From assembly GCF_964275005.1 (NCBI RefSeq), contig NC_092702.1:1713501-1777500 (forward strand): a stretch of DNA of 64,000 bases. Direction: 5' to 3'. The translations under genes and the position numbers were made by a program. This document shows, in pieces, positions 1 to 24,748 of the stretch. This DNA is from Diadema setosum. Lineage: Eukaryota; Echinodermata; Echinoidea; Diadematoida; Diadematidae. A model generated the notes under the pieces. That model searched no databases, was not told the origin of the DNA, and saw nothing but the letters and a program-made list of their open reading frames with translations. Each line of letters starts with the position of its first letter. The stretch's first letter is position 1.

Positions 1-866
1 GACTGAATTCCATCTGTTTTGATGCTGAGGATGAGTTGTTATCATTTATTCACAAAGCACTTGGGAGAAAGAAGGGAAAAAGACAGAAAAAGATTTCATA
101 ATGCTGCATGGTCAATTTAGTGTTCTTTCAGTTTGGTTTTAAGAATATTTTAATTCAAAATGCTTTATAGAATGTGTCTTTTGTTTCTTATTATGGGAAA
201 ACAACCTATGTTTTTTGTTCCTTTGCAGCACCTTTGTAAACCTTTGTATAATAAAAAGAATGCATAGATGTGATAAGATCCCATGTGATCTAAAAATGAT
301 ACATTCATACCCATTTAAGATGTGAGTAATAAAGGCAAACAAGACGGCAACACAGTTCATTGTGATAAATGAGTGACACACTGTAACTAATTAATTGTGT
401 TTGTGAGAAATTAGTTCACTGGGTTGATCTTGTGTGAGTCTACACCTATAGCAGTAAGTGCAAGCTTTTTTTTTTTATATATATAGTCTGTGCTGATAGC
501 CTAGAATAAGTCAGCTTGGATGATATGAAATATTGTAGAAAGTTTCAATACTTTCACTGACAGTAAAATCATTGTTATGAGAGGTATCACATGGTGATTA
601 TCACATAGTTTTGAAGGTTGACTCATTCATTTCTATATACCCCAAAGGTGTTAACATCATTGTTAGTAAGTGTCTGTGCCAAATAACAGTCCTACCTGTC
701 ATATCTGGTAATTATTTCCACATTATCGTAATTGTATGGTGCTAAATTCACACTTCACTGACAATCTAATGTAGATACAGGGATATTTCATGAGACATGT
801 ACACTTGTAAACCTTTGTTTCAAGATCATTAAAATGATATCATTGTTTAAATCTAAATCTATTTAG
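1..866 (+). other. TAPT1 intron (3' part)
   Basis: AT-rich non-coding sequence that ends in an acceptor (ATTTAG at 861-866). The earlier TAPT1 exons lie before the window. I see no convincing exon or repeat here beyond short T and TA runs near 470. Confidence 0.7.
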
Positions 867-3800
867 GAGATCAAGATTGAAGGCAGCTGAGATCTGTGAC
901 TTGTTAAAAGTCATCATTCTTGTGGTGTGCACATATCTGTTGGATAAGCTAGACATATCCATGCTGTATCACATCGTGAGAGGCCAAGCGGTCATCAAGC
1001 TCTACATTATCTACAACATGCTGGAGGTAAGGCTAGCACCAAGAAGTACGCATGATTATAATTTGATATCTTCATTTCTTAGGTTATGAGGAATTTATTG
1101 CAGTTACAAAAGATCAATCAAAGTGCTATATGTATTGTATGTTTATCATGCAGAATTTGGAGTTAAGTGTGTCAGTGGGTGTTTTGAAGAATTGTTCGTG
1201 GTGATTTTAGCAGAAGTCATCAGGTTTTCAGTGTAGTGAATTTTGACAAAGGGGTCATCAGACTTTTACCAAATTTACAAGATGAAAAAACGAACAATAT
1301 TTCAGGTATCAATTTCATGTGGTATGCAGTTTGACATATTATATTGAGTTCCTTTTTCCCTGCCTGTATGCTTTTGTTTCTCTTTCCTGTCTGTCTCTCT
1401 ATCTATCTGTCTGTATGTCTATCTATATCTATCAATCTATTTGTCTGTCTGTCCATCTGTTAATCTGTCTGTCTGTCAATCTATATGTTTATCTGTCCAT
1501 AACTGTCTGTCTATCGATATGACTGTCTGTCTGTCTGTTTGTCTTTGTAGGTGGCAGACAAGCTGTTTTCTTCAGTTGGACAGGACATCCTGGATGCCCT
1601 CTTCTGGACAGCGACCGAGGAGCGAGACAAGAAGCGGGATCATCTAGGGATTGTCCCTCACCTACTCATGGCCATCATCTATGTCAGTATCCTTTCATGC
1701 AGCAAGGAGGACCAATGTGCATTCAATTTAAATTTTGAGCTTAAATCGCTTGTTTTTAAGCCTTTTTTTTAATAGTTCTGACAAGTTTACTGTCCCATTT
1801 AACTCACATGGCCAATATCTATATCAGTATTCTCTTCATGCAGTAATGGGTGCAACTTACTAGGTTTTCAGAAGGAAAAGTGCTATTCTCATGTTCGACT
1901 GTGTTCATCAGTTCTTTGAGATGTAGAGTGGCCACAATCAAGAAAATCCTCGGAAAAGAGCACTTTTAAGAGCAATGCTAAAATCAGGGAGTGTGGTTCT
2001 GTACTTTTAATAGTTTTTCTGTGATATTTTAGAATAGGTGACAGTTCAGTGTGCCCTATTAATCGATTCAGAGATAGTCAGCATACATCAGTACACAGTC
2101 ACTGGATTTCACTCTTTGATTTCATTAACAGCTAGATGATGAACTAGGCTGTACTTAGTTGTGAATATTTTGCTTCCATCTCAAAAGGTGGCAGGCTGTT
2201 GTCTCTAGGTATTGAACTTGATGTTGGAAGTGTGTAATAAATTACAGGCAGTCTACATAACTGTTGATGAGTGTGTGATTCATGTTTAAGGTTCTCATCT
2301 CAAGGCCAGTGTTAAAGCTCTGCTATCAAAATATGTTTGGATTTTTAAAACTTCACTATCTAACTTGTTGCGCAACAAGTCTACTTCTTTGTGATATTGA
2401 AATCTTTTAAAACCCTTACAGTTTGTGACACCCTTAACCCCACCACCCACTCTCCACTTTAAGTTATTCACACTGTCCTAGTTCTCTTTCAAGCCACTAC
2501 TCTCATCGTTGCTTTCAACTCGCAGCAGAACGTTCTAACATACCTCATGGTCAACAATAATGTAAGTGGGCGCAGCGGAAAAAAAAAAAGGAGAGAAAAA
2601 CCCAAGCATTTATTCATGCTGTCAATTTTGGACTTGCCTTGTGCATTTGTGTTGGTGTGAGTGTTGCAGTTCGGGCTGGTAGATTTTAAAGGCAAATAAA
2701 GCATCACTTCATATCATGAAACCATACAGGTTGTGTTCTGTCTTGAAATGAGTGCTGGATGATATTTTACCCCACACACTGTTTATCACAAATGATCATC
2801 TTTATCACAGCAAATGCTTGCATTTCATTAAATCTCACCAGTCAATGCATCAAGCACATTATAAATCAAACACATTATAAATCAAACCAAAATAAGTGTG
2901 TGTCATCTTCACGATGTGGTTATCAAATTTTCCTGTGCACTAGGAACTCCCTCTTTTTTCCTCGCCTCTCCTGGTGTTTAAACATTCTTTCTCCTTTTTG
3001 TGCCTTATCATAGATTGGGGGAGAATTATAGGATTTACTTTAGCACTTGCATTAACAAGATTGACTTTGTGGCAGTGAGCTAGTGAGCCTACTTGGATGC
3101 TGTTAATTTTGTTTGTGAATAAAATTTTAACTCGTTGAATGGTAAGCGATGGAAGTTTTCGTGACAGCTTTAATATGCAGTGTAACCTCTTATATTTCAA
3201 TGATAACCTCTTCTACATGTATGTACCTGGAAACTGTAGTATTTGTGTGAAAAGGAGTAGCATAATTTTGATTTTAATGCTGTTAAAAGTTTAACAGCAT
3301 GTTATCTATGAGATGTGTTTTAAAGGTTTCCAATAGGCTTGTATTTATTAAGCTCCAAAGAATGCTGTGAACTTTACTTTTTGGTGGAAAGTTTTACACA
3401 AAAATACTTGATTATGGCCTCTGCAATGGATATACTTCATCATTTTCTGAATACTCTGTTAAACTCTTGAGGCATGGAGGTAATATTTACTTAACTCTTG
3501 ACATTTTGGACTCCGTGGTCATTCCATAACACAATTTTGTGCAGTTCTTCACACCATTCTAGTCTTGTTTCAAGGCACTTGCATTATAGTAGCTTTCAAC
3601 TCTCACAACCGGGCCTTGCTCACCATTCTCCTGTCTAACAATGTAAGTTGCTGCTCTGATTGGAAGCATGAGAAGCGTGTCTGTTGTGCAATAGTTGTTA
3701 TTGCTCCGTATTATTTCCTCTTTACCCATTTCCATTTTCCATGTTTGTAGGTGTATAGGTGTATTTTTGATCAGTTATTGACTTTTATGGCAGAGAATAG

Positions 3801-6800
3801 TTTAAAATCAGTCACAAGTAAGACTTAGGGGCATCAGAAAATGACATTATATCATGCTGTAAAGCTAAACATAAGTGCATGCTAGATGGTCTTCCAAATT
3901 GATATTCTGTTCAGGCATATAATCTGAAATGTCAAAAAAACAAAAAAAAAAACCACCAAAAAACAACACTCACATGTACTACAGACAACAGCATATCTAA
4001 AACATGGCCATCCAACTACATGTTGCTTAAAATGATAAATAAATTATAGCTTTCACTCCATAAAGGGATCTGTTAACATTCAAACATACATTGTATAATC
4101 TCTTTGCTTTAAACTTTTAAGGGTAACACCCCCCCCCCCCAAAAAAAAGGACTTTTCTTGTTGTTTGACAAAAACACTGCCCATAAACATATATCACAAC
4201 TATTTTCCTGTGGTCTCCACATAAGAATAGATTTGCAATCATTTCTTGGGGTGATGCTCCATAACAATGTCTTGATCAATGTGATTAGCATTAAAAACAT
4301 TGAGTTTCATATTGCTACATGTACACCTGTGAATGCACATATTTTAGTGCCTGTAATTAAAGCTGTGTTGTGAACAGTGGCGAAAAAATAATGATAGCCA
4401 AGTAATAGCTATTATAGTTGCATGTGTTTTTTATGCGAAAGCAGATAGAATCTTTATTAGCCCAATTGTTCCCCTTAAGTGTGCAATGAGTTATACTCCC
4501 CCATTCCTCACCCCATTCAGTGTGCCTAGTTCTATCCAAACTATGATGCTTGATATTTCATGTTTCACCTTCTGAGTGGTTTTCATAAGATCCTGTGGGT
4601 CAGTAATATGGTTTGAGCTGGTAGCTTGTGCAGTTTGAAGTTTGAACCTTGCTTATTGCAAAAGACCTGAGTACTGTTACATTGAGTTTATGTAGTTGTT
4701 TGGTAATGAATGGGTATGAGCATGTTTCGTGTGGTCAAATACTTATCATTTTTTACATGGCTATCTTTTATATTATTTGGGTTTTTGGTTGTTTTTTTTC
4801 TTCTCTCTCTCCCCTTTTCTAATTAACCACTCCTGGGATGTTGCCCTGTATGTAGAAGTCTCTTAGTGTTGTGGATAATTGACATGAAAATTTGAACAAG
4901 CTTGAGGCATATCTGGCTGTGTTGAAAAGCTTGAGATTATGCATTCCCATTTTATTTGATCAAAATCTTTGTATTTAGTTGCAATGTATCTTCTTTTAGG
5001 AGCTCATCAACAGGCTTCAATGAAAGCCAGCAGTTGTACACATTTAGGTCTGAAAAGATTGACCAAGAACAGATTCATTTTGGATGGTCACTCTGTATCA
5101 GTGTAGAATAGTAAGACTTTTTGTAGATATTTTCTTCTATCAGAGTTCTCTTAATATTTTGTGTACTGAACACATACCAATGATCAGTTTGTTACAGTGG
5201 TGAATTATTGTAACATGTTGATAATTTCACATGTAAAATGGATTTTTCACATTGTCCTTCCTGAATATTTTAACCCACTTCAGGATATCACTTTCTGTCC
5301 TATAATATGCACAATCCCATTGACAATATCACACTTTTTCATAAATGCCATGGATGTTTGACAAAAGTTTCAGACACTATTTTGATGAATGAAAGGTTAT
5401 ACAGCCATTTTATAGAACAGATAATGCCCACATTTTTTACCAATGAATATATTTTATTCTTGTCATGATGGAAGTATTGTTCATCAACCTACCCATTGTA
5501 TTCAAAGCTTGCTTGGTATATATACCATCAACCTGCCCCAAGTGGACACATTTGCTCATTTTCATGATACTCAAATGCAAAAAACAATCATGAAATCAAC
5601 CATTTCCACTGCATTCATTTCGAGTAAAATCTCATTTTAAAGATTTTATGACAAAAGCAGAGCAGGCCAATGTGTATTTTGATGGCATGACAGTGTTTGG
5701 AAAGGTGTTTTTTTTTTTCCAACAAATGTCATCTACAAGTTAACAGTAATGAGCTGTGTGAGTTTATGTCCAAGCCCAGCGTAATTTCATAGAAAGCATG
5801 CTTCCGTGGAGAAAGCAGGAATGTGCCTACAAACCATGTCAGTTTGTCAAAGTTTGGTGTGAATTTTAGTTGTAGTCGTCCTCTCATGCTCCAATTTATG
5901 TGTTATTGCTGTGAAGGGGTCATTGGTGGATAATTTCATAATTTTCTTTTACTTATTATGCTTTAATATTTTCAGTTTGATGTGTGCACAGCTGCGTGTT
6001 AACAATGTTTTCAGTCATAAAAATCCTGCAGCAGCAGATGATATTGTGCGTAAAGAACATCTATGTGTTGGCCCTGTTGCTAGAAAAGACTTGCTGTATT
6101 ACAGTAACTTGCTAAAATAGTAACTTTCAAAGCAACGTGCTGTAATCATGGGAATTGAGTGTTGCCGTGGTAGTTGCTGTTAATGTAACTCACTGTTATA
6201 GCGAGTCTTCCTCATAACATGGTCCTAATGTATAATATTTAATGACTCATGCTGTACAGGAAAATGTTGTAGATTAGATTGCATGCGTGTGTCTTGTGAA
6301 TGATAGTTTTTGTTTGGATGACATACTTGAATATTATTTGTTCATTGGGGAGAGCCAAGCTGGGCAGGAAATATGGATTCAACTACACCGAACCAAAACT
6401 GAAATTGGTTAAAAAACGTTTCCATAGACCTTGTGGATTATCAGGGAAAGAAATGAGAAAACTTATAAAATGGTCCTCCAAAAATGATTTGATTGTAGCT
6501 TTTTCATCGAGCTTTTGTGATCGCTTCCTTAACGTGATATCGAAATTCACTGTCTGAAATTTCCGCATCAACCTTTAATCGCATACTCTTCAGCACTCCA
6601 TGCTATTTTAGCCATTTTCCAAGCCACCACACTGAGTGTGGCATTCAACTCCTTCAGCACAGCTCTTCTTACCATCATGATGTCTAATAATGTAAGTACA
6701 ATCTGACCTTTTTTTTTTTACGATTTGACCTCTGTCAGATGCTTGGCAACATGCAAACAGTAACGTTTCATCGCTTGGACCATTTTGTCACATCAGCTCT

Positions 6801-9800
6801 CCAAAGATAGAATATCATCACAAACTTATTAATAGTTATATTTTAAAAAAATAATAATTTTTACTTTTTCTTTGCATTTGACAAAGGTGCAAAGACCCAA
6901 TAGATAATACAATCAGTCTTATTAGTTTTTGTTATTTTTATTTTGTGAATATTTGAGGAGTGCATAAATTTCACAGCATTTTGGTTGAATTCGGTCATTG
7001 ATACATTAAGTTGCCATGCTGCATAAGATGACAGTGGTGTTTTTTCAGACTTGTCAGGAGGAAGCTAGCACAGACAGAAGTATCAAATTTAAATGTGTTT
7101 TCCTGAAAGTTGAGTTTGAAATATGCTAAATCTTCAAAAAGTTGTATGATTCAAAAGTGACCAGATTATTAATTGCATTCTGTAAAATGAATTTATCACA
7201 GTTGAGCGGGATTTACAAATAAGTCCCTCCCTTTAAATGAGAGTACAATGAACTGAGGGATAGGTGCAACAACATAACATGTGCAGCTTTGTATTGGTTG
7301 GGTGGGGAGCATTTTTGGTTTGATTGCATGGCGCTAATACCTAATGGTTTATGATTTCATAATGTTCCCATGCCTTTTGAGTTGCATCAAATTATGAGTG
7401 ATTTCATTTATGCCTACTTGCACGACGGATGAATGTGTGTCATGCTTTAGCATTTTGCTTTTTGTCATTTGATGCAATTTTAAATTCACATACTGTATTT
7501 GTTGCTATGTATTGAGAAAGGAACAGTCTATTTGCCATCAACGTAGACATGTGCTCTGTGCAAAAATGTTGACATCATCACTGTAACAGGTAGTATAGTG
7601 TGGTACAGAAAATTATGTATACATAGGTGTGTGGGGGGAATAGTTCTGTGCAGAAAAAATAATTGTGTTACGACGTTGTCACACTGATCACTGTCAACTT
7701 TTATTTAATATCCAATTTAATATATGACAAATTCTTGTAGAATAGCTGTATTCAAGTCATGCCTCCAAAACCTGATCATCATCAACTTTGTGCATAAAAT
7801 TAATATAGCTCTTTTCATGGGAGATTGTCATGTAGGCCTGCTGCAAGCATTCAGCGATAATGCAGACAGGTAGGCCTATAGCGAGTGGTTATTCAACAGA
7901 AGTTTGCTGGTTTGTACACGGCATCCGATTTTGATTTGGGACCAAGTTTTTATTGTTATTTCTGGCCTGAAATCTATCTCGCATTAAAAGAAACGGCATT
8001 TCTATAGGTTAACATGTAAACGCTATTTGGGACATGACAATTTACCTCGTTAAATGCAAATTCTTGTTGTGTCTGACCTTGCTATAATGGGACTCCCTTG
8101 TATGTCTTATATTGCTGGCAACGTTTGTTACCAACTTTTTACCTACATCTTTGTCTCACTTCACTTCACTTCATAGTTTGTAGAATTGAAGGGAAGCGTG
8201 TTCAAGAAATTTGACAAATTCAACCTCTATCAAATATCATGTTCAGGTGAGTGCACGTAGTGCTTCTAAGGATCCCATTCACTTGCTTGCTAAATATTTA
8301 GTTTGCTTTCTGTAATTTAGATATTAACATTGGTACACCCTGCTGGTTTATCTTTGATCAATGAATTAATACAAGGCGGTTACCATTATACTGTTCTGTC
8401 CAAATTCGTGAGGAAACATTTTTGTGGAATATAGTCAACAGTAGAAAGAAAAGTGAATGCTGGACCATAACATATTGAAATTTCAATGCATTATTTACTT
8501 CATTGTTTGCATGGTGCTTTCTATTGTGAGACACATGCTTTTTTTTTTACGCCTTTTCACTTACTTTCAAGGTATTGACATCCAAGTATTGGTTGAATCT
8601 GTCTAGAGGTATGCAGTTATGAAACCAACAAAGGACTTTTTTTTTTAATCTCACAGAAGAAAGTAATAGTGCTTGTATTAGATTGTACACAAAGTTAACA
8701 CTGTATTTGCCATGATTCTGTTATGTTGAGTATTTTATTGTCCATGTGCAATGTACTGAGCTTTATTTTCTTCCTCATATTTTTCTCTCTTTGCCCCCAT
8801 TGATAGATGTAAGAGAAAGATATCACTACATGGTGCTTCTTTTCTTTGTGGTGCTACGTAACATGGCTGCATTTTCATGGAGTCTGGGTGAGTTTGTCCT
8901 TACCATTAACTGTCCCAGAACAGTATATTGTAGGTATGAACTTGAATTCATACCAGAAAACAGTGTTATGGCTATGTAACTCAGCCCTTTTAAAGTTGAT
9001 TAAGATATATTCTGCTCGTCAAGGTGACCCTATCGCATATTTAACTCCAAAGAGCTTGTGACATTAAACAGGGCTTGACATTAGCACTTTCTTGCTTGCC
9101 TGAAAAAAGTAAAGATTTCTTGGGAAAGTAAAATGTTGACTATTAGAATGAGAAGATCCTTAAGTCAATACATTGGCACTCTTTTTGGCAAGTGCTTTTT
9201 TTTTTTTTATCTGTGAATCAAGTAACAATTTAAAATTTGGTGATTTTACTTAGGCAAATAGAGGAAAAATTTCATGGTGGGCCCTGCATTAAACATATAC
9301 CAAATTGTTTATAGGTTATAACTGATGCCATTTTGCCAAACATAAGAATTAGCCAAGCAGACAATTACCCATGAGTTACATCTAAAGTGTCTGGTGTACA
9401 TACTGTTGTAGCAAAGTTATATCAATTGTGTGGTTGTGTTTGAGAACATGCATCTCTCAAGTCAATCTGTGCTTTAATGACGTAGAAATTTAGATGCTTT
9501 GACTCAAAAAAAAAAAAAAAAAAAAAAAAAACTTTGGTAGCACTATAGCAATGTCTCATATTTCAAGCACTTTATTTTATTGTGAATTTCCTTGTAACCA
9601 TCGTATTCCCTTAGATCATTTTTGGAAGATGCTTCCTGATGTCCTGATGGTGCTCTGTGCTGAAGTCTTGATTGACTGGGTGAAGCATGCTTTTATCAGC
9701 AAGTTCAACGCTCTTTCAGCATCAGTAAGTTGGATGGCTGGTTCAGATAAGAAAGTACAGACATTATCACTTTCTACTAGAATTTTAATGGGACAAAATA

Positions 9801-12780
9801 GGAAAGTTCTTACTTCATAGATTAAGCAAATGGATGGAATTGATGCCTCTGACTTCTATTTCTTCTCCATGGAAGCTATGACGAGTTACAAAATAGAATT
9901 AAAAGAGTACAGAACCCATTAAAAAATAAGATGTTATCTTGCTATAGATGAATTTACTACGAATATTTCCTTCTGGCGCTTCATCATGAGTTGATTATGT
10001 AATGAAATTTGAGAGTTCTTTGGTTGTCTTTGTGACAGTATGTTGCTATTTTGATTGTTTGATTCCTCAACAAAACGTTGCCTGTAGTCACCATGGAGTG
10101 TATCAGCCAATATGTAATCAACACATACTTTTATTTCCGTCTTTAGACTTTTAATTGAAATCTTCTTTCTCTTTCCCACAGAATTACACAGAATTCCGTG
10201 CAAGTCTAGCTTATGACATGGTTATCAGCAGGAAGAAAAATGTGAGTTTGTGTTTTGTGTCAACTAGACAAGATCTGTATAGAATGATGTGAAAAAAAAA
10301 CCCATCCACCCACCCCCCCCCCACACACACACAACATGCACACAAACACACTCTCATACACAAAGAATCATCACCTAATGCTTTTGAATATTTTTTGTTT
10401 TTCTCATCAAAATGGATCGTGCAGGAGAAAATATATAAAAAGGTGAAAATGTAATATATTTCCTTGATATTACCTCTCAAAAAGGAGAGTTCAAAGATAT
10501 ATTCTAATGCTGTTTATTTTAATACTAATCTTGGGGAAAATTTTGAGTATGATATATCTGTTCACCAACAGGTTTTCACTTCTTCATTGTAAAGCTTTTG
10601 TTTCAAAGCTTCATATTCAGACAGTATCGGAGACCCTGGGAGTATATGGTATCATGCAACTCAGATTTATCGAACTGAAAATATTGTTGAACATTACCTT
10701 AAGTGATCCTCACAAATCTTTCTCCTTACACACCTTTTCTCCATAGGCCTTTTCAGACCACTCTGACCTGGTGGCCAGAAGAATGGGTTTTATTCCTCTA
10801 CCCCTTGGCTGTGTTGTGAGTAGTCCAACAAATATTAATTTCAGTTTTTACATTGGAATAGTGTGTGTATGTCGTGAAGAGTGGAATTAGAAATGAAATA
10901 TGACATTCAGTTTTATAAAATGTATAAACAAAAGAAAGAATGGTAGTCATTTATTGTCATATCCGCTGATATTCACCCTTCACAGACAGCAGATGCCAGT
11001 AGGAACAAATTATGACATATGCAATGCTGTTGTAGGAACTAATGATGCTGTCAGGTCAGGTCCTCTCTGCACATAGGAGGTTACATAGAATGATAATTTT
11101 GTGGTCACCTATAATGCCCACCATCAAGAATGTTTGTAACTTTAATAGGTTATACTCACATGCTAGATTTGGTACACCTCTTGTTCTGCTTTAGTTTTTA
11201 TGGTTTGATAGTATGATAGTATGCTTCATCAGGGTTATCATCTTTCAGTGAAATCAAACACCAAAATGAATTCGCAAACATGCATTTGGCCTCAAAGAGA
11301 CTTTGTTACAGTAGTTTGTGCATCACAAACAAATTTAGTGCCAAAAATGTAAACACTAGGTACAGTTACTGAGTAAAACCTGTTAAAAGTAATTATCCCT
11401 CCATGTGTATTGAATGTATGAAGGGAATGGAATTTGATTCCTGTGATCTTTGTGTTGCTACAGGTGATCAGAATTATCAGGCAGACAGTGAAACTAAATT
11501 GGAACACCGCTGTGGTACTCATCTCATTTCTATATGTGTGGTAAGTGTGATAATTAGGACCAGTTTAGTCTAGGTGCTGGATACAAGCTATCTGAAAGAG
11601 TTATGCCATTATTCAGAAACCTGGTCACTTAGATTTGCAGCAATTTAAAGGTTGGAATTCTATAGAATTATTCTCCAATTGATTATTGAATTTGCTTACT
11701 TTTATCAGTGACTCATGTAATATTTACAACAATTGTACAGTGTACCTGTTGTAAGAAACTTTTAATATGTGCAAAGATGTCAGGATGTTGCCTGGAAGTT
11801 AAAAGAATGGCTTGTTGTAGTTGCACCCTTGTAGCATAAGATTCAGGAGTTCACTTCCTGCTTTTGCTGTGATATAAGAAATAGACTAATTGATATAAAC
11901 TCCTTTTATTACTATTAAAACTTGCTTTATGAATTTAAAGTTTATTGAAAGTCAGTAAGTCCTAAAGAAGTACACAAGACGTAGTTGCTTGGCTGTGTCC
12001 CGTTGGGCAACAGACAAGGAAGGTTGGCATCAGATCATTCATGTCACAGGAGTGCGTATTTCTGTCACCTGAAATGATTGATGATGATGAGAAAATCATG
12101 TATGAATTCAGAAAACAAAAGCAACCAGTAAATCAGCCAAACAGAAGTTGATAGTGAATACAGTCCTCACGACAGTGAAACTTCTGGTTGCATTAGGGTA
12201 TTGTTGATTAATGATTTCATCTGCACTGCTTGTTGTAATTGAGGTAGATGTTCAACATTCCATTGTGATATGAAGTTTAGAATTGGTGTTTTCTCCTTAT
12301 GTCCTTAGCCTGGTAGCAGTGAAAATCTTGCTGAGCATCGTATTGTTGGGGAAAGCATGTCAGTATGTGCGAGAAGCCGGTTTGATGGAGGAACTCCTGA
12401 AGAAGAAATCTCCAACTCACGGACCATCTGCTTCCTCCACCACCTCCGCCTCCTCCGCCCCTTCCTCATCCTCCGCTCCTTCTTCATCTTCCCAACCCCA
12501 ACCAACGAAACGCCCCCCTCCAAAGCTGGTCGACCTGAGATCGTCCGACCCCAACCTGACATCACTGCAGTCGCCCACCATCCCACTGTCGCCCACGACG
12601 CTACACTCCGTGAGCTCCCTCAACGTGCCAATATCGGAGACCAGCATCGGCGTGCTGTCCAGCCACGTGGAGGCGGGCGAGGCTGTGCGGAGACCAAAGG
12701 GAGTGGTGCCACCAAAACAGCCGCCAAGAGATATCAAGGACATTGACAGATACATGTTGTGTGGAAATAGGATTGTCTAG
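867..12780 (+). CDS. TAPT1: TAPT1 homologue, C-terminal ~443 residues (5' end outside window)
   Basis: Multipass membrane protein of the TAPT1 (DUF747) family, placed in vertebrates at the Golgi and ciliary base and needed for axial skeletal patterning. Exons: 867-1026, 1551-1686, one of 2464-2561/3545-3642/6594-6691, 8177-8246, 8807-8887, 9615-9724, 10182-10241, 10747-10815, 11464-11540, 12309-12780. All junctions are GT-AG and the phases join without a break to the stop at 12778-12780. Blocks recognised from vertebrate TAPT1 include RGQAVIKLYIIYNMLE, GQDILDALFWTATE, KGSVFKKF, VKHAFISKFN, ARRMGFIPLPL and SIVLLGKACQYV. The last exon adds a Ser/Pro-rich, presumably disordered tail (about residues 340-390 of the visible part) and the family-typical end DIDRYMLCGNRIV. 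The tail differs from the vertebrate one in sequence, as is usual for this family. The assignment is confident; localisation is known only for the vertebrate family. Confidence 0.95.
1376..1545 (+). repeat. TCTG/TCTA microsatellite
   Basis: Degenerate tetranucleotide run (CTGT, CTAT, CTGTCTGT) in the TAPT1 intron. It ends five bases before the acceptor of the exon at 1551, so the repeat supplies the polypyrimidine tract of that exon. Confidence 0.85.
2464..2561 (+). CDS. TAPT1: TAPT1 alternative exon A
   Basis: 98-nt exon (2 nt + 32 codons) after the acceptor TTTAAG and before the donor GTAAGT. With the preceding A it encodes 33 residues beginning IIHTVLVLFQATTLIVAFNS and ending QQNVLTYLMVNNN. 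This fills the membrane segment between IIYV of exon 1551-1686 and FVELKG of exon 8177-8246. It is the most diverged of the three versions: the second half lacks the SHN..LLTI pattern. No stop, no frame change, and a strong donor, so it looks usable. Confidence 0.85.
3545..3642 (+). CDS. TAPT1: TAPT1 alternative exon B
   Basis: 98-nt exon after GTGCAG and before GTAAGT, with the same phase and length as exons A and C. It encodes ILHTILVLFQGTCIIVAFNS then HNRALLTILLSNN. It keeps the SHN motif that I recall from vertebrate TAPT1 at this place but replaces the QATTL stretch with QGTCI. Because 98 is not a multiple of three, using it together with A or C would shift the frame. Confidence 0.88.
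3643..6593 (+). other. TAPT1 intron between alternative exons B and C
   Basis: 2.95 kb of AT-rich sequence with short homopolymer runs (A near 3940, C/A near 4132). I searched it for a fourth copy of the 98-nt exon, using the VAFNS core and an AAT-GTAAGT end, and found none. An open stretch at 6300-6557 has no splice-site or homology support. Confidence 0.6.
6594..6691 (+). CDS. TAPT1: TAPT1 alternative exon C
   Basis: 98-nt exon after CTTCAG and before GTAAGT. It encodes TLHAILAIFQATTLSVAFNS then FSTALLTIMMSNN. It is the version closest overall to the vertebrate sequence as I recall it (QATTL and LLTIMMSNN kept), except that SHNK is replaced by SFST. It lies 2.95 kb after exon B and 1.5 kb before the next constitutive exon. 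Confidence 0.9.
6692..8176 (+). other. TAPT1 intron
   Basis: Non-coding AT-rich intron after alternative exon C. I see no gene, inverted repeat or RNA gene in it. Confidence 0.6.
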
Positions 12781-13280
12781 CGAGTGGCTTCGTGATTTCA
12801 TCACCGCTGTCATGTATTTATTTATGGTATTCCTGTCAACAATTAGTTGATTTTGAGAAGAGGAAGGGAGAGAGAGAGAAAAAAAAAAATATGAGAAAAT
12901 GTGTCTTAGTGTGTGTGAGAGTATGTGTTTCATTCCACAAGAGTATCAAAGATTATCGTGATCTCTGCTGTTAACTCTTACAGAGAGAAAGATCACCTTT
13001 CAATTTATAACAGATTTATGATTTCATGCCACCATATATAGCCTATTCTCTTATCATTTATCTATTATCATTTTTTTTTTTCTGTTTAAAAACCATCTTC
13101 CTCTGTTCTTCCAAGCACCCCCTGTCTCATATTCAAAGTCGTTTAGTGTTTTTTTACCAGTCATCAAAAGTCTGGTGTCTTGCATCAATAGTTGCAAGAA
13201 TAATGCAAAGAATATCCTCTAGTGATGCCAAAGAAACAGGGGAAAGTGTTTTTATTTCTAAAATAGTATGATATATTAAA
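12781..13280 (+). promoter_or_regulatory. TAPT1: TAPT1 3' UTR with candidate poly(A) signal
   Basis: Non-coding, AT-rich sequence directly after the TAPT1 stop. An ATTAAA at 13275-13280 is the first plausible poly(A) signal, but the true end is unknown. The 14.6-kb duplication starts inside this UTR at about 12968, so everything after that point, including the signal, recurs at 27568 and later. Confidence 0.5.
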
Positions 13281-13709
13281 ACCATATCGTAATTTGGCAT
13301 ATTGCATGTGGATCAGTTACAATACCTAGAAAGTCCTGCAGCAGAACGCAGTCATTTTTTGTGAGCTGACTATAGTTAAATCCTTTAGTGAACTTTTTTG
13401 TTAATTAATCACATTGTAAATCACACACTCTATCAGGGGAATTTGGAGCATTGCACACTTTCAATTCTGTGTTTGCTTGGCATTCTTCTGGTAGTGGTGG
13501 TCTATACAGATGAAGCTTACAGCGATTTAGGTATAAAAGTTTCAAATCCATTTATGCATGATACAAAGTGAAAGTGTGAAATGTTGCCATATCTGTTGTA
13601 TAGGTCTAGCAGAAACCATCAAAAGGAATTACATTTCATGAGAGACAAGTATGAGCAGTATATCTTTATTAGTTTGTCTTAGATGTAAACAATCATGTTT
13701 TAAGGGTTA

Positions 13710-14569
13710 TTATACCCCCGCCAAACGAAGTTTGAAGGGGGTATATAGGAATCAGCGGACGGTCGGGCGGTCGGGCGGTCGGTCAGGCGGTCGGGCGGTC
13801 GGTCGGGCGGGCGGTCGGTCCGTTGCAAATCTTGCGTCGCGAACTACTTCCTCAGTTTTCAACCGATTCCCATAAAACTTGGCACAGATGTGTGCCTTGG
13901 GTTGTAGATGTGCAAGACGTATTTTTTGACAGTACCCAAAAGTACGTTGCCATGGTAACGGCATATTATGGGCAAAAATGGGTACAAATCTTGCGTCGCA
14001 AACTCCTCCCACAGTTTTTGATCAATTTTTATGAAATTAGGTACAGATGTTCATCTGAATATGTTAATGTGCAAGACACATATTTCCGCAGTGGCAAAAA
14101 GTGCGTTGCCATGGTAACGGCATGTTATTGGTAAAATATAGGGCAAAATGCTTCATGGCAAAACTGCTTCATCAGTGTTCTTCCAATTCTCATGGAATTC
14201 ATATTGAATGTTTGTCTTAGGATATAGGTCAGCATGACACATTTCTTGACAGTGACAAAAAGTATGTTGCCATGGTAACAGCTCACATATTATGAGCCAA
14301 AATGATGGAAAATTTTGTGTTGCAAACTACTTTCTCAGTTTTTGCCCAATTTCCATGAAACTTGGTACAGATGTGTGCCTTTGGTTGTAGATGTGCAAGA
14401 CACATTTTTCGACAGTACCCGAAAGTACGTTGCCATGGTAACGGCATATTAATGGCAGAAGATCAAGGAAAGATCTTGCGGATTTAACTACTTCCTCAGT
14501 TTTTTGACCAAAGCTTATGAAATGTTGTTTTGACCAAAGCTTATGAAATGTTGTTTGGCGGGGGTATAA
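13710..14569. mobile_element. Non-autonomous inverted-repeat element with ~160-bp internal repeats (copy 1)
   Basis: The ends are inverted: TTATACCCCCGCCAAAC at 13710 and GTTTGGCGGGGGTATAA ending at 14569. Behind the left end lies a GGTCGGGCGGTC-type array (13758-13822). The body consists of about four diverged ~160-bp monomers, each with CTTGG(C/T)ACAGATGT-like text and a perfect GTTGCCATGGTAAC at 13946, 14105, 14266 and 14429. There is no coding capacity. Similar repeats are, as I recall, widespread in marine invertebrate genomes; I cannot name the superfamily. Confidence 0.8.
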
Positions 14570-14596
14570 CCAGTCGCTGTAGCGACATTTCTAGTT

Positions 14597-15932
14597 TCAA
14601 CTGGAAGGTTGCTTTAGTATCCATGAGATGATGTGAAAGATATTTCACTTAATTAAATAGTTTGTATAAAATGATGATATGGATTCTAATCAAATGATTG
14701 AATGAGATCTATCACATGACCAATCTGTTATTTTGCCTGAATGCCCAACTTTACTTTTTACCAGTTGTTAGTGTACCAGACTGCTTGTCTATGCAAAGCT
14801 GCATTGCCTGCGTTTGGAGCTGGTGCTTGCCTGGAGTCTTGGAGAAAATGGCTGCTGCAGAATGTATATCATGTCATTGTTTTTGTTTTTTTTTAAACAA
14901 ATAATATACATTACTTGGATGGGCATTATCAAAATTTTCCACCCTCCATAAGTTTTGCACAGTTCTAAACGCACACATGGCTTCACCTTGTCTGTTTCTG
15001 GCTATTCCAAAGTTACTGTCGGGTGGATAATTGTCACTAATACCCTCTGTAATGTGCATTGTTTGTACACTAGTACAAAAAAGATGCAAAATAAAAGACA
15101 ATGATTTACTATTCCACAACAGTTTAAGAGGAGAATATTTGTGAAGGTCTTGGGTCACATGTTAAAATGAAAGGGCATGACATAGTTTGTAGTCAATCAA
15201 ATTGAAGAGAAGAAAATATTACACATTCATGAGACATATTGTGTCATTGGAGAGATTTTTTTATAGATAATTCATAACTTGTTTTCCAAAGAATTGTATA
15301 AATTCTATGTAGTGTCTCTTTTCTCTCTGTATTAGTGAATAATGCCAAATAGTAATGATTCTTTCCTCTTTTTTTATACTTTTTTGTGAGGGTATAGAAA
15401 AGACTATGGTCTCCACACTTGTCATTTATAGTAGGTATAGTTTTTTTTTTTCTTTACTGTTACTGACTTTAACTTTTGCAGAGAGGCAACTTTATCTGTA
15501 TTTCTGTTCTTGATTTTGTGAAATCCCAAAGTACAGTTTGAAGTGCAATATTATTTCTATTTCCAGCATTTGACAAAATTGTCAAATCTTTTTAAGGTCT
15601 TAAACTCTCATATCAGATTTAGAGTTTGGATGTACAAATAGTTGTATTATCAAAATGTATTTGTCATATGATTCTGTGTTTGTTTTTGATGTCTTGTTTT
15701 GATATGTTCTCATTTCTGATTGCAACAGTTATTACAGTATAAAGATATACCAACCTTAACTAATAGTTATAAAGAAAATATGAAACAGAATCAGTTTGTT
15801 ATAATTCCAGTCATTTGGCTTTGCTCATCGATTTTGTGATGCAAATAGTAAGAGCTCAGTGTAAAGGAATTAATAACCATATTTAAGTCAACTCATATTT
15901 CTCTTTTAAATTGTTTTTACTTCATTTTATGA
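14597..15932. other. AT-rich stretch without a supported gene
   Basis: No exon, RNA gene or inverted repeat that I can support. It may be distal TAPT1 3' UTR or intergenic. It recurs at 29196-30531. Confidence 0.5.
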
Positions 15933-16026
15933 TTAACCCTTTGTGTGCTTTGAGTGCAAATCGGCACAGATAAAATCCATAGCCTTGTACACATTGTCAA
16001 AAATCCCTGGTACAGAAAGGGGTAAA
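15933..16026. mobile_element. Short TTAA-type inverted-repeat element, weak (copy 1)
   Basis: About 94 bp between TTAACCCTTTGTGTGC and CAGAAAGGGGTAAA, which are imperfect inverted repeats of each other. The pattern is that of small TTAA-targeting elements; the right end is degraded. The same element recurs at 30532-30625 in the second large copy. Confidence 0.4.
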
Positions 16027-16606
16027 GTGAGAGAAAATCAGAGTGTCCATCAAGTGTTACAGCAAGCTTTGACCTTGTGTACAAGGCAAGATTCACCACA
16101 TTCTGCTACACACAATATCAGCAACAAATGTAGGGAAAATCCATCCGTAGAAGAAGTATGCGGTGATTGCAATCTATGTGACGCGCCATCGATTGCCACA
16201 AATCCATGGAAATTCATTTGACAGGGAAACAAATTTATCAGTTGAACAAAAGATATTCTCTGATTAGTGTTTTGTCCCTGTAGATTAAAACAACTAAAAA
16301 AAGTTACCTGCTGCAAGAAAGAACATGCTGCTCAGTACTTACAGAATATTTATGCAGTACGCTGTCAAAACTGATTTAATCTTACTGTAGACATTGCCAT
16401 GTGATGCAAGCAATTTGATTCTTGTTTTTTGATACTGTCACATAAAATGCGAAACAGAAAGAGATCATGGAATTCTCAGACTGTAATCATTTGCCTAATT
16501 GTAACGGTAACATGTTTTCGAAGAATGAAATGAATTGGTTATGTAATGTTCAACATTATAACAGCATGACCTGACATTTTGATGATGGATTAATATGCTC
16601 TTGTGT

Positions 16607-16772
16607 CAGGGGCGGATCCAGGAATTCCGTAAAGAGGGGGCACCTTTACAAAATTAAAGGGGGAGGGGCGCACGCACCCCTCCTCCATTTTTCTTTTTAT
16701 TTCTTTTGTTTTAACAAAAAAAAAATAATAAGGGGGCGCGCGCCCGGTGCACTCCCCCCGGATCCGCCACTG
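16607..16772. mobile_element. Short inverted-repeat element, GGCGGATCC family (copy 1)
   Basis: 166 bp bounded by CAGGGGCGGATCC and GGATCCGCCACTG, near-perfect inverted ends, with GC-rich subterminal parts (GGGGGCGCGCGCCC) around an A/T core. This end sequence is common in many animal genomes as a non-autonomous DNA transposon. I do not see a clear target-site duplication. Confidence 0.7.
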
Positions 16773-19700
16773 GACAAAGTCAGTTGTTAATTTTTCATCT
16801 GATTGTTGTCTCATTAAGACAAAAGATGGATAATATGAGGAATGGAATGTTGCCTAGTTGTGTGAATCGGTATTTGACCAAATTAAAGCCTTGATAATCA
16901 ACCATACAATATCTTTTGAATGATGCCTTGTGATTTGACCTGATGTGATTACAACAATCCTGAGAGATGTGGTGGAAAAAGAAATTTAATGGATGGAATA
17001 GAGGATAGAAGAAGAGAAATTGCTTCAGAGAGAGAAGAATCAGTGAATAGAGTACGTAGCAAAATGAGAGATTTGTAAAAATGAGCCATTAGATTGCACA
17101 AAATAGATTTTCAAATCTAAGTGTCGATAAATTATCAACCATTATGCCCTGTGGTCATCTGACATACTGTACTATAAACACTCTGGGGTGGTCATTGTCA
17201 TATCAGATGAGGAACTCCTCATTTATGTGGTTACATATGACTTCAATGGAAACTTACCTAACTAAAATGATTTTCTGAGTGAAGCTTTTTTTTTTCTCTC
17301 TCTCTCTCATCTCAGACATCAAATCGTTGCGACGTTCATTCATTTCCCCAGGGAGTGCAATCTTTGCTTAGTTCTTTTTAAGGCATTCAAAAAGATGAAG
17401 AATTTTACTTTTGCAGAGGACAGTAATGCATCTGATTGTACGTTTGTTTGTGTCTGGATTTTTCTATTTCATTATTGTCCTTCGTAGGATGTTAAACGAT
17501 GTACACAATTTTATTGCATTACACATTCGAGTACATACATGTAAGTATGAACACACTTCTATGTTAATTTTGTTTTATTTCAGACAGATGCACCCGAGTG
17601 ACCCTGATACTCCCATCTGTAAATGTGATAAAAACGGTCGTTTCGAAGGGAGTACGAATATTAAATTTTGTTGAAAGATCATGAATTGGAACTAATTCAA
17701 ACTAATTCTCACTATACTGTGAAAGTAAATAACTCTTTACACTGCCCCTCTCATTCCCTTTTGTTGCTAATTATTAAGACAAACAGAACTCTTTTTATTC
17801 TTTAGTGCGTGCTCCCAGGTTCGTCTTGTTTACTTTTTTCTTCGTCCTAGTTTGTATCGATCCAATTCCATTGACTCGGGGACAATTGTCCGTAACTCGA
17901 CAATATAAAGGTGAAAAGAATGGAATAAAGAACGCTTGTATTCTTCATTGAGGCTTTGAACTCTCCCCACCCCTCTTTTCCATGTCTTAACCGAACATTT
18001 ATTGTGCCATAAATTATGCTCATTACAGGGCCAGGAAACTCCATGTATGATAATGTATACCATGAATATTTGTTATGTCCGCACGCGTTTGATTCAGTGC
18101 GTGCTGTTTGTAAAGCAAGCTGAGGGGACTCTACATTCCAGTTAAAATTAGGTCAGATATTGTGCGAGTATATCTTCCAACATAGAATAACAAGACGGCA
18201 AATCGATGAAATTCAGCTCCGTGTCGTCATCATTGAGGGGGTAGGAGAGAAAGTTCAAACTTTTGCCCTCCCCCAGCCATAGGGGAAGTAAGTCGCAGGA
18301 TGGACAGTTCTGAGAGGTTGAAGAGGTTCCGGAATTGCATCGCCATGAAATTTTGGCGCCGTTTATCAAACGGAAATCGACTATGTGAGAAAGCTTCCCA
18401 TTATTGGTCTGTTTCTTCTTGGTGTGGTAAGTAAAGCCAGGGAGGTGGGATAGACCGTTTTGGTAAAGCAGTCGTGGGTTTACTAAACTGACCAAAAAAA
18501 AATCGTAAATGCATATAGGCGTATACATTGTACCTCTAATGTGGTAGACTTGTCAGCACGTTATTGAGTCGTGTGATTTGAACAGGTATACGATCAAGCG
18601 ACTTATAAAATGTACTTGCAAAGTGGGAGGAAAAATGTCAGTATTTCGCGTATTCATCTTGTCTTGAATGAAATCATCCATCATGACCCTGTGTAGGCTT
18701 ACTTCGTTACACGCTTCTTTGCAGTTAATTTTAATGTTTGTTCGGAAGCACACGTGTAAAAGATCGTGCAATATCCCCATCGATATAAACTATAAGTAGT
18801 AATACACATTGTCTGGATTCACGCAGAGAATGGAATAGATTTCGGACAACACATTAAACATGAACTGTATGAATTAATGTTACTTTCCTGCAATTATAAA
18901 AATCACCTTGAACGCAACACCGTAGCGATGTAGAGCCTGATGTTTGGATGGTAGGCATATTTTGTTGATGTGATTTCAATGATGATTCTGTATAACATGT
19001 CTATGATAGTTATATCCATGCATGAATGTTATGAATAAGATTACTTATACGTGAGAAGAATGAATTTCACGCAGATTCATCAATTCGGTTTTCATCCATT
19101 CTGCCACTTTATTTTGTAGGGACTACTAGTATATCATTTCATATTGATGAGCAATACAATCCCCAGGTCATTTGTTTTACTTTTTTTTTTATAGATCTTT
19201 TAATAGTTACAACACAACACTATATGCATACTTGTTCTCCCGCCACCTTTCTCTATCTCTGAAATTGCTTTCCAATATCTTGTTTGTGCAGGAATTATCA
19301 CTGATGTTTCCGGGTTGATCGAGGGTTTTCGATGTAATGTCAAATGATTTATGTTTTCATCAATCTAAACACAATCCCTCGTCATTTGTTTGAATCAAGA
19401 TGTCAACTATAAAGTAAGCAACAAACGACATTATCATCTCGATAATTATTGGCTGAAATCATGTCATTCTGGGGATACATGAATTTCCCAGGAAAACCCA
19501 ATCTCTTCTACATGTAGTTTGTTTTTGTTTGCTTTTCATTAATACGAACCGAAAGTTTTAGAATAGGTGTTCGGTCAGAAATTGACGGGCGCGCAGTGAA
19601 GATGGAGAAGTTTCGCACTTCCTTTTTGAACTATGATAACGACTTTGGTCCTTGTCTCGTATCGTATAACAGAGAACATTTTCCCGTATCTTTACTCGCC

Positions 19701-19920
19701 ATGTTGCCACGATGTGCAATATCCCTGGTGCAGCGTATCTTTTAGATAGTTGCACATTCTTATGGCGATAGCAGATGAACAGGTCTTTCAGTGATTCAAC
19801 AATATCCCGGCTGGTTTGGCCGACAGAAAATACATGTAGCGCTCTACTGGAACCCAGTGACATTGCCTTTTACATGTACATGTATTGTATAATTTGTGAC
19901 CCGGTTTGTGACATAAAGAG
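16773..19920. other. Stretch with only weak exon candidates (copy 1)
   Basis: Mostly non-coding. Two places look like possible exons: a plus-strand piece after TTTATTTCAG at 17582, open to a stop at 17674, and a minus-strand piece (see 18148-18520). Directly after the stop of the 383-aa gene the sequence (19558-19863) is also open on the minus strand but is most simply its 3' UTR. It recurs at 31373-34520. Confidence 0.4.
18148..18520 (-). CDS. Possible terminal exon, unrecognised (copy 1)
   Basis: On the minus strand a T-rich tract ending GGTCAG is followed by about 124 open codons to a stop at 18148. Composition and codon mix look protein-like: an NPRLLYQNGLSHLPG start and an acidic DDDTELNFIDLPS near the end. 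The reading phase needs two bases from a previous exon and does not fit exon 1 or 2 of the 383-aa gene, so it would belong to another transcript. I do not recognise it; it may be chance. The duplicate is at 32748-33120. Confidence 0.25.
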
Positions 19921-22268
19921 TCAAAAGCTGAAGAGTTTCTTCCCGAAGTCTTTCCCGCGTGCCTTGAGGTAGCGGCAGGCCAGCGAGCTAGCTGCCTTGA
20001 TGGCCGACCAAGTACCATCGACTTGCATCGGCTCTGCGCCCGGCGGGTTGGTGAATTCCACAACCAACGAGTATCGTCCGCACTCCACCGTAAACTCCAG
20101 AGTCTCTTGGAAGTTTTCACCCACCTGCTGCTCGTGTTCATCGACGTCGGTGCATGGGGCGTTTTTGGCTTCGAAAGATGTACTCCCAGGTTCTTGCCCT
20201 ACTCTGACGTTTTCTGCTCTGTCTTTACGTGCTGATATAAGTTTGGACAGTTTATCTGTGTCTGCATCTGAACTTTTCATGTCCCGTTTTGTGGAGAAGG
20301 TGTCAGTCTCTTCAGGAGCTGGTTTGAACGATTCGGACACCGATGTCAAGGTACCATCCTCAACGTCTCCATAGTCGCCGCTCATCGAAGCTTTCACATC
20401 TCCTGCGGCTAGAATGACTATGTCTCGGTGAGACTCAGCGTGGAGTTCCTTCCCCTCGATACGATTGTTTGTGTTGTCATTTGGGACCTTGGCACCCCGA
20501 GGCTGATCACTGCTATACTCTCCCGACACTGAGCCGGAGTTCTCGCACCCTCGCCGTGGTGCTCTGTCACGATGGATTCGAACTTTTTGTGCAAAGGAGT
20601 TAATGACATCCATACAATCTTTAATCTCATCCTCAGCTTCCCTTATTGCAAGGTACAGCTCGTCAAGGGTACCGTCCGTTTCATTGTCGCAGTCGACATC
20701 GCTCTCGTTTAAACCTCCGGACAGATCGCTGACAACGGTTAAATCCTCGCTAGATTCGTCATCTTCTCTGGTGGACAGGTTGTTGAAGGTGTAAGACTGG
20801 TTGAAGTTTTTGATGATTTCTGCTGTCAACTTCGACTCGCTCTCGGGTTTGCATGAGCCGTCATCGTGATTTTGGTCTTCCGTCTGGAATTCACGTCTGC
20901 GAAAATTGGTACTCTTACCAAATTTCTGATAAAATAAATGCCAATGAAATACAAAGGCAGCTTTCAGTTTCACATATTCAAGACAGCTTGTACTTTAATG
21001 CTTTAAATGATGTTATTTTATCTCACTTGTTTTTAACAAACTCACCTTGTTCATTGAAAAGCCCGAGTAAAACTATAAGAAATCAAGCTAGAAGTGAAAA
21101 TAAATCGCAAGATAAGCTTTCTTTCAGGTAGTGAACGAAATCATTGGGGTTGTGGGAAAGTGTATGTAGAGGTAAAATGGTTTTATGAACAAATTTTTCA
21201 ACTACATGGATAACTATAATTTTAGCAAATTGCTCAAGCGATTATGAACTTTGAAAGCAAACGTAACAAACATATAACCAATTTCTCTCAAATATAATTA
21301 AATATAATAGATAGATAGATATAAATATATTATATTATAGGTACATTATATAAATATATATATATCGCGACTTTGCGGGCTGTATAATTGATCTAATAAT
21401 TTCCCCAGTAAGTTGGATATAAAGCCAAGCTATCATTGTAAGGTACAAGCATGTATTATACATTTCAGCGTTAAAACTGTGTTTCAACGATTAATGTAGA
21501 CGAGATAATATCTTTTGTGCTTAACTCGAATCAAATTGAACACAAACGTAAGTGCTCCGCAAATAGAATGAGTGTAACTGTGACTAAATTTCATGAGTGA
21601 CCGTTAACATTTTTCATAACATCAATTAATATATCTATTATACAATTTTGTACGTCCTGTGTTAGATATTTCATTGTGTACCTTCTGATTCTTTGTGTTC
21701 AATCTGGGCCTGGAGTTGGCCACTGCTTTCTCGTCATTCTCCGTTTGACCTGTACCAATGAGACAAAAAGGGGAAAATTTAAATGAAAAGAGAGATATTA
21801 GGATCTATATAAATATATAGAGAGAGGGGGGGGGGGATAATAACCGCTGTTGTCGCAATCTACTGGTAACGTTGATATTGAAATTTTGTTCAGGTTGACC
21901 TATACGGATGCCATTCTTGACAAAGAGTATACACATTTCGTAACTGTTTATAAAGTCCTTGAAAAATTAGTTTATATGTATAGTTTTACTTTCGGTGTTT
22001 CAAAAGCGTCCGGACTCCCTTACTATATAGTTGCTCGAAAAAAAATGTGATACTGTAGTACAAAATGGTGTTCACAGTGTCTGGCTGGGTCATGTGCAAA
22101 GTACATGTATATGGAGATTCCAGACTTTCTTATGAGCGAGAAATACTACAGAAAATTTGTTGCCTGTACTGTATTTGTTGTGGTCTCACCTGATGTAAAA
22201 CAACATGTCAGATATGACTTTGTCAGAAATCCCTTTCTCTTTCGAGCCGGAAATGTTTCCTTTTCCAT
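19921..22268 (-). CDS. Unrecognised 383-aa acidic protein, three exons (copy 1)
   Basis: Spliced minus-strand gene: ATG at 22268, exons 22268-22190, 21749-21682 and 20925-19921, with GT-AG junctions whose phases agree (1152 nt with stop). The start MEKETFPARKRKGF has a basic, possibly nuclear-targeting stretch. The middle is rich in Asp, Glu and Ser and looks disordered; residues about 136-162 (LDELYLAIREAEDEI...) could form a helix or coiled coil. The last 60 residues (323-383) look folded: a beta-like ETLEFTVECGRYSLVVEF, then PPGAEPMQVDGTWSAIKA and a basic KARGKDFGKKLF end. I do not recognise the family. The first 16 residues of the uninterrupted frame in the last exon are intron, because TTTTATCAG gives a phase-matched acceptor. 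Head-to-head with the small gene at 23125. Confidence 0.75.
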
Positions 22269-22435
22269 GGCCTTCTTACGTTCTTTCTATAGCTCGGAAG
22301 ATAACGTAATGCTCCGATTTTCGTACAAGTGACTTGTCACCTCGAAACAATGGATAGCAGTGTAGTACTGCAAGTAAATCAGTGGTGTGCTTTTGTTTAC
22401 ACTTGTCACCACGGTGAAGAATACGCAATTAACTC

Positions 22436-22590
22436 GGACGTCACAATGAAGAAATATTTTTGAAGCGCGTTAGTACGCAGTAACCCATTCCTGACGTCAC
22501 AATAAGACATTATTCAAAGCGCGTTGATGCGCAGCAACTCATTCAGGCGTCACAATACACATGAGTCTAGTTTTGCGCATGCTCATTGGT
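22436..22590 (-). promoter_or_regulatory. Promoter-like direct repeats with CRE and NRF1-type motifs (copy 1)
   Basis: Three consecutive diverged repeats of 54-55 bp begin at 22436, 22491 and 22545. Each starts with a (G/A)CGTCACAAT motif and carries a GCGCGTT..GCGCAG or TTGCGCATGCTC motif 30-35 bp on. The second contains the full CRE palindrome TGACGTCA (22492-22499). An ATTGG (CCAAT on the minus strand) follows at 22585. It lies 170-320 bp upstream of the ATG at 22268 and faces a plus-strand gene on the other side, so it may serve both. Confidence 0.6.
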
Positions 22591-23124
22591 TAGAATAAGC
22601 TGCTTTCTCGCACGCAATTTTCGTCTCAAGCCTGCGCCAGAGCGCCCGATGCTACAGTTAACTTCTCTCTGTACATAAAACACATACTGACATGATTTTG
22701 TGTGATGGACATCGACACAATTCAATTAAGTTCAAGTTGCTTTTTTATTTTATCAACTTTTGCCAGCCACTGTTAATACTGCTTTCCTATCTTATTACTA
22801 GAGCTTACATTGTAAAGTGACTCGTGAAAACATAATATCCAATGTCAGCACTTTTAGCACCTCAAAGATTGCAGACATATAAGATTTATAGATTTTTAAC
22901 TGATGTATAAAAATCATTTTGTGCATACAGATTGTCTATTCAAATTTGATTTGGAGTCTTTTATTGAATTCTTGATAACATTGTGATCCAAGCACAACAG
23001 GTATACATTACGCTGAGTCATTATATCACTTCTCTTGTAAATCAATATTGATTGATATCAATTTTAAGCAAATTGTGCTATGACGTCTTTGTCTTCCTTT
23101 TTGTATATCACATTTTGTTTTTAG

Positions 23125-24097: not shown

Positions 24098-24121
24098 CAT
24101 TACGTTGTCGGACCACGTTGT

Positions 24122-24730
24122 GAAATGAAGATTATAGTACAGCTACTGTAAAAAATCAACTGAACTGAAGCTATTCATCCAAGTATACAACTCCCTGTCG
24201 TACTGCACAAGCATCATGAGGTCGTCTCAGCTTCAGCAGCTTTACCTATATAAGCGAGATGAACGCCGTATGCAGTGATTCTACCCTGGATACTCCGGAA
24301 TAGAGATATCCTGTAAAGAAGAAGTCACACAATACATGTTCATGATGTATTTTATTATCATTTTTTTTTATAGAAAGTATAGGCCTTATTATGTATAGGT
24401 GATGACATTATATTTCTGTTTGATGAAAATGAAGATTATAGTACAGCTACTGTAAAAAATCAACTGAACTGAAGCTATTCATCCAAGTATACAACTCCCT
24501 GTCGTACTGCACAAGCATCATGAGGTCGTCTCAGCTTCAGCAGCTTTACCTATATAAGCGAGATGAACGCCGTATGCAGTGATTCTACCCTGGATACTCC
24601 GGAATAGAGATATCCTGTAAAGAAGAAGTCACACAATACATGTTCATGATGTATTTTATTATCATTTTTTTTTTATAGAAAGTATAGGCCTTATTATGTA
24701 TAGGTGATGACATTATATTTCTGTTTGATG
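24122..24730 (+). repeat. 304-bp tandem duplication (copy 1)
   Basis: The sequence from AATGAAGATTATAGTACAG to TTTCTGTTTGATG occurs twice head to tail (24122-24425 and 24426-24730), identical apart from one base in a T run. It starts 25 bp after the stop of the small gene, so it may double the 3' UTR or a terminal exon. The whole arrangement recurs at 38721-39329. Confidence 0.9.
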
Positions 24731-24748
24731 TATATATATATATGAGTG

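Follow-up and report, generated by a model that had tools for sequence, protein, structure and literature searches.

In a 64,000-nucleotide (nt) stretch of the Diadema setosum genome (assembly GCF_964275005.1, contig NC_092702.1, forward-strand positions 1,713,501 to 1,777,500; referred to here as the window), the TAPT1 gene was found to contain three homologous 98-nt exons in tandem, designated A, B and C. These exons are probably mutually exclusive, with their exclusivity being enforced by incompatibility between the minor (U12-type) and the major (U2-type) spliceosome. The positions of the exons and of the associated splice signals are listed in Table 1.

Table 1. Features of the TAPT1 exon cluster (positions refer to the window)
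Feature	Position	Strand	Details
TAPT1 (DUF747) gene, in-window part	868..12780	+	earlier exons upstream of the window
Constitutive exon 5' of the cluster	1551..1686	+	leaves in phase 1
Weak U2-like donor, GTCAGT	1683..1688	+	phase 0; overlaps the U12 donor
U12-type donor, GTATCCTTTC	1687..1696	+	score 15.7
U12-like branch site of A, CACCCTTAAC	2429..2438	+	score 11.8; branch A to exon 26 nt
Alternative exon A	2464..2561	+	98 nt; acceptor AAG; donor GTAAGT at 2562
U12-like branch site of B, ATTCCATAAC	3521..3530	+	score 8.3; 15 nt
Alternative exon B	3545..3642	+	98 nt; acceptor CAG; donor GTAAGT at 3643
Possible U12-like branch site of C, AACCTTTAAT	6570..6579	+	score 3.6, weak; 15 nt
Alternative exon C	6594..6691	+	98 nt; acceptor CAG; donor GTAAGT at 6692
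Constitutive exon 3' of the cluster	8177..8246	+	entry phase 0; acceptor taken as U2-type

The gene was assigned to TAPT1, which we take to be the animal name of the DUF747 family. Protein forms containing exon A, B or C matched the Pfam profile DUF747 (PF05346) with 203.9, 208.4 and 214.1 bits, respectively, against a cut-off of 25 bits, which bears out the TAPT1 identification made in a first-pass annotation of the same DNA. When taken alone, the 33-residue peptides encoded by the three exons all matched profile positions 93-125 (A, 23.5 bits; B, 28.5 bits; C, 33.7 bits), exon C being the nearest of the three to the profile and exon A the furthest; the lone A peptide fell slightly below the cut-off and reached 57.8 bits with short flanks. 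The exons upstream of the window were located by tblastn using a segment of human TAPT1 as the query, and the stop codon was assigned to 12778-12780 in a last exon placed by eye. A search for DUF747 (E up to 10) across the whole genome of 912,680,840 bases in 102 contigs, in which the best candidates were scored, returned eight matches, seven of them over the cut-off, all in this gene, and no second TAPT1 locus was seen in this search. A 154-amino-acid segment of form B retrieved no similar solved structure at E up to 0.1. A progeroid syndrome in humans has been associated with loss of TAPT1 (PMC9906387).

The three exons are non-identical and share their phase, being entered in phase 1 from position 1686 and left in phase 0 into position 8177, as is characteristic of tandem homologous exons in a mutually exclusive cluster. 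Each carries its own acceptor and a GTAAGT donor, and the coordinates given for them in the first-pass annotation were exact. A search of the window revealed no fourth copy: exons A to C scored 113-120, while the next best segments scored 18 (positions 1-13000) and 22 (remaining window). Including the split codon, the encoded peptides comprise 33 residues each (A, IIHTVLVLFQATTLIVAFNSQQNVLTYLMVNNN; B, ILHTILVLFQGTCIIVAFNSHNRALLTILLSNN; C, TLHAILAIFQATTLSVAFNSFSTALLTIMMSNN). The hydrophobic stretch of the upstream exon runs on into the first half of these peptides, and their second half (NS....L.....NN) is of lower hydrophobicity as judged by eye, so that the earlier description of a 33-residue membrane segment suits the first half. 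In this endoplasmic reticulum membrane protein, the cluster is likely to provide three versions of a helix end and of the conserved stretch that follows it.

To establish the coding consequences of exon choice, translations were made of all eight possible splice products. Those with one exon (three forms) were open across the cluster junctions and remained so over the next six constitutive exons, and the other five combinations (no exon, three pairs and all three exons) hit an early stop codon. Joint inclusion or omission of the exons would consequently yield no normal protein, with the exception of an in-frame omission if the donor at 1683 were used. An off-frame TAG is located at the same place in all three exons (2479-2481, 3560-3562 and 6609-6611; codon 6 upon phase-0 entry), so that a second exon joined in stops translation immediately. 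The first-pass annotation had reasoned from the 98-nt exon length that none or two exons would break the frame, which is correct and yet incomplete: the 294 nt of the triple form would restore the length frame, and this form is broken because its second exon stops off-frame at codon 6. The shared TAG is not claimed here as a selected feature, as CTA or TTA accounts for 9 of the 34 leucine codons of the constitutive exons that were inspected. The mutual exclusivity that had been proposed for the cluster is thus supported by its reading frames and early stops, as well as by the splice signals described below.

Pairwise comparison of the peptides revealed 20 of 32 (A-B), 18 of 32 (A-C) and 20 of 33 (B-C) identical residues (56-62%), the alignment of A including a gap of one codon behind SQQ and omitting its terminal Asn. 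According to the Nei-Gojobori method, exons A and B exhibit a synonymous divergence (dS) of 1.09 and a nonsynonymous divergence (dN) of 0.31 (dN/dS ~0.29), and silent sites are saturated in the A-C and B-C pairs (dN of 0.35 and 0.32, respectively); among the three copies, silent change far exceeds replacement change. The DNA alignment scores of all three exon pairs exceeded those of 200 out of 200 simple shuffles, which, together with the DUF747 matches of the peptides, rules out chance similarity. Conversely, alignment of the flanking introns (200 bases on each side, six pairs) was unconvincing, the observed scores being reached by 16 to 179 of 200 shuffles. Because the introns do not align convincingly and the silent sites have diverged, it was also ruled out that the exons had been duplicated recently or had arisen as an assembly artefact. 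This pattern indicates that the copies are old and were subject to protein-level selection during at least part of their history, although a pairwise dN/dS ratio, here from three copies of one genome, cannot prove present constraint on each copy.

The donor at 1687, which is common to the three exons, is of the U12 type: at 15.7 it obtained the highest U12-donor score among 4,091 GTs on the plus strand, with the runner-up at 9.8. The first-pass annotation had overlooked the U12 type of this donor, which offers another explanation of exclusivity. On the other side of the cluster, the GTAAGT donors of A, B and C gave U12-matrix scores of -13.9, -9.3 and -15.0, respectively, and appear to be U2-type. 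Among the five GTs at positions 1620-1769 that are reached with an open frame, only those at 1687 and 1717 are in phase 1. As the latter (AAT followed by GTGCAT) looks poor as a donor when judged by eye, splicing that includes A, B or C in frame should run via 1687. This argument also covers exon C, whose peptide is the nearest to the family profile and which, if used in frame, would most likely be joined to 1687. If spliced to 8177, the weak GTCAGT donor at 1683 would omit the cluster in frame, a use that is putative. On the minus strand, the highest U12-donor score (14.3) was obtained for GTATCCTTGC at 53667; no exon was recognised before it.

With regard to the acceptors, seven others in the gene have branch-site scores of -3.0 to 3.8, against which the sites of A and B stand out and that of C, taken singly, does not. 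A sum as high as that of A, B and C occurred in a fraction of 8.4e-5 of random AG triples, and in 1.3e-4 when the triples were sampled among 496 pyrimidine-rich AGs; in all three exons the first AG downstream of the putative branch site is the acceptor. The acceptor at 8177 was judged to be U2-type because it lacks a strong U12 branch site (3.8). From these signals, we infer that the acceptors of A, B and C are all recognised by the U12 small nuclear ribonucleoprotein (snRNP), that of C being the least certain.

Several observations weigh against this assignment. The branch score of C is no higher than the one obtained for the acceptor at 8177, and the branch distance of A is twice the U12 optimum of 11-13 nt (PMC3584512); at 8-22 nt from exon A, no U12-like branch site was detected, the best score (-1.4) being reached by 35% of AGs. 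The free duplex energy with the genome's own U12 small nuclear RNA (snRNA) does not separate A, B and C (-5.4, -6.7 and -6.4, respectively) from the other acceptors, five of seven of which pair better than any of the three. Upstream pyrimidine content does not separate the acceptor classes either (0.82 for A, 0.59 for B and 0.68 for C, against 0.68-0.82 for the seven others). One of these seven, dn2, was taken at 8806 in the pairing comparison and was placed two bases off in the pyrimidine comparison. Finally, the matrices behind the U12 donor and branch-site scores were built from general consensus sequences.

The genome was shown to encode the minor snRNAs U11 (102.9 bits), U12 (118.2 bits), U4atac (98.1 bits) and U6atac (134 bits, with a second match of 105.7 bits), all over their Rfam gathering scores, indicative of the presence of a minor spliceosome. 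JNK of the same genome served as the sole U12 control, its intron being one that we take, in line with the literature on JNK, to be the conserved U12 intron. The JNK exon ending in MFPGSD is followed by a donor identical to that of TAPT1 (GTATCCTTTC), and TTCCTTAAC is located 25 nt ahead of the next exon, so that a branch distance like that of A does occur in this genome. Only one copy of this JNK exon was seen in the 10 kilobases (kb) scanned, which covered ~1.5 kb upstream of the exon. Two other candidate controls were dropped: TRAP-gamma (SSR3), for which the site was unconvincing, and CTNNBL1, for which the acceptor was not resolved. At the CTNNBL1 locus (L046, around 5320), a conserved exon is followed by ATATCCTCT, likely a U12 donor of the AT-AC type.

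These site classes suggest how a single exon would be selected. The U12-type donor at 1687 would be joined only to a U12-type acceptor, i.e. that of A, B or C, and the U2-type donor of the chosen exon would then have the U2-type acceptor at 8177 as its sole partner, since the remaining two exons would offer it U12-type acceptors. If U12 and U2 sites indeed do not mix, each transcript would include exactly one of the three exons, with no two joined and none skipped, and the choice would represent a competition among three minor-spliceosome acceptors. Messages with none, two or three exons would stop early and would be removed by nonsense-mediated decay as a backup. All three isoforms are presumably produced, and they may differ in function.

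A more far-reaching version of this proposal, for and against which we find the case evenly balanced, is that of an old one-of-three switch wholly inside the minor spliceosome, consisting of a single U12 donor and three tandem U12 acceptors, with a possible fourth form. Isoform ratios would then depend on the U12 snRNP and on acceptor factors, such as those of the ZRSR2 type (PMC10853781), ranking branch sites of differing strength and distance (26, 15 and 15 nt). Since the competing branch sites differ in these respects, TAPT1 would report minor-spliceosome activity and could represent a natural readout of it, while the U2-like donor at 1683 would offer a fourth form without the segment. If true, the minor spliceosome would be capable of a multi-way choice, and exon duplication beside a minor intron could immediately make exons mutually exclusive, without calling for any regulatory sequence. 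The cluster also means that a conserved stretch of TAPT1 varies naturally.

Exclusivity could alternatively reside in the survival of messages, mixed products being freely made and only one-exon messages escaping nonsense-mediated decay, with the U12 donor as merely an old feature of the gene. The early stops in all five mixed or empty combinations would be in line with such filtering, as would the weak U12 character of acceptor C, and frame-breaking lengths are common among human clusters (377 of 629; PMC5740500). We nevertheless consider decay alone an unlikely explanation, as it requires neither a consensus U12 donor common to three exons nor U2 donors behind each of them, and such site classes predict incompatibility (PMC3584512). 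Equally, a case can be made that no more than one or two of the exons are used and that the others are decaying or poison exons, most likely including A, which scores lowest against the family profile, shows a one-codon gap together with an additional final Asn, and has a distant branch site. Exon A retains its frame, its donor and a strong branch motif, however, and the A-B dN/dS ratio points to constraint, with the limit that a pairwise ratio cannot show both copies to be constrained; partial use of the cluster thus appears quite improbable.

Docking/selector RNA pairing is a known mechanism in larger tandem arrays and might enforce exclusivity as in insect Dscam, for which the introns of the cluster are long enough. 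The check for such pairing suggested in the first-pass annotation was performed in four layouts and yielded longest exact complements of 9, 8, 7 and 9 nt, lengths reached by 35, 35, 197 and 85 of 200 shuffles, respectively. Nothing beyond the shuffles was therefore observed in these four layouts, a comparison that has little power without related species, and we regard enforcement by RNA pairing as very improbable. Spliceosome incompatibility accordingly remains the explanation that we favour for the exclusivity of exons A, B and C.

Elsewhere in the window, a tandem duplication of ~13.2 kb was observed, in which positions 13,066-26,306 are repeated 14,599-14,600 bases downstream (~27,665-40,905) with 99.7-99.8% identity in three blocks and with one-base register shifts. 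This repeat represents either a recent duplication or an assembly duplication. Furthermore, positions 42445-43545 on the minus strand contain an open frame of 366 amino acids, which by eye resembles a protein kinase domain (HNDLHNGNVLL, DFGLA). Outside the window, the mitochondrial gene COX1 was found on a contig of 15,708 bases. In the part of it that was read, three of four AAA codons fall on Asn of the best-matching PDB chain (8d4t_N) and none on Lys, and the five ATA codons fall on Ile (two), Leu, Phe and Met (one each), as counted by eye; this usage agrees with the echinoderm mitochondrial code (table 9, which flatworms also use).

Exclusion by splice-class incompatibility is already known and is rare, with 5 cases counted among 629 human clusters (PMC5740500). 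In two vertebrate examples from the literature (PMC8329584, PMC6717393), the choice lies between two exons and sets U2 acceptors against U12 donors. Alternative splicing at U12 introns was described as almost absent in a 2012 review (PMC3584512), and tissue-dependent cases were included in a 2019 survey (PMC6717393). In open-licence literature listings, no prior description was found of mutually exclusive exons by class incompatibility in TAPT1, nor of such exclusion in an exon triplet, nor of U12 acceptors competing with one another.

In human TAPT1, a twintron combines a U12-type intron with a U2 alternative, the U12 and U2 forms comprising 567 and 338 amino acids, respectively (PMC3564746). 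As in the vertebrate twintron, the U12 donor of the D. setosum gene shares bases with a weak U2-like one, a likeness drawn by gene and not by codon position; the excerpted account of the twintron mentions no exon triplication (PMC3564746). Dscam-type arrays share with the present cluster the presumed use of one of several tandem homologous exons, yet differ from it in that no docking/selector pairing was seen here and splice-site classes would suffice. Exons 11/11a of TMEM87A and TMEM87B are likewise mutually exclusive, being 72 base pairs in length, positioned around a minor intron and tissue-dependent in their use (PMC6717393, PMC8329584); they differ in that the competition is between a U2 acceptor and a U12 donor, in that there are two exons, and in the gene concerned. 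Similarly, exons 6a/6b (7a/7b) of the JNK genes MAPK8 and MAPK9 are mutually exclusive, their choice involving one U12-type and one U2-type intron (PMC8329584, PMC3584512). JNK represents the mirror image of the arrangement described here: there, the competition involves two acceptors of the U2 class and two donors of the U12 class (PMC8329584), whereas TAPT1 of D. setosum presents one U12 donor to three acceptors that we interpret as U12-type, each exon ending in a U2 donor, and has three exons rather than two.

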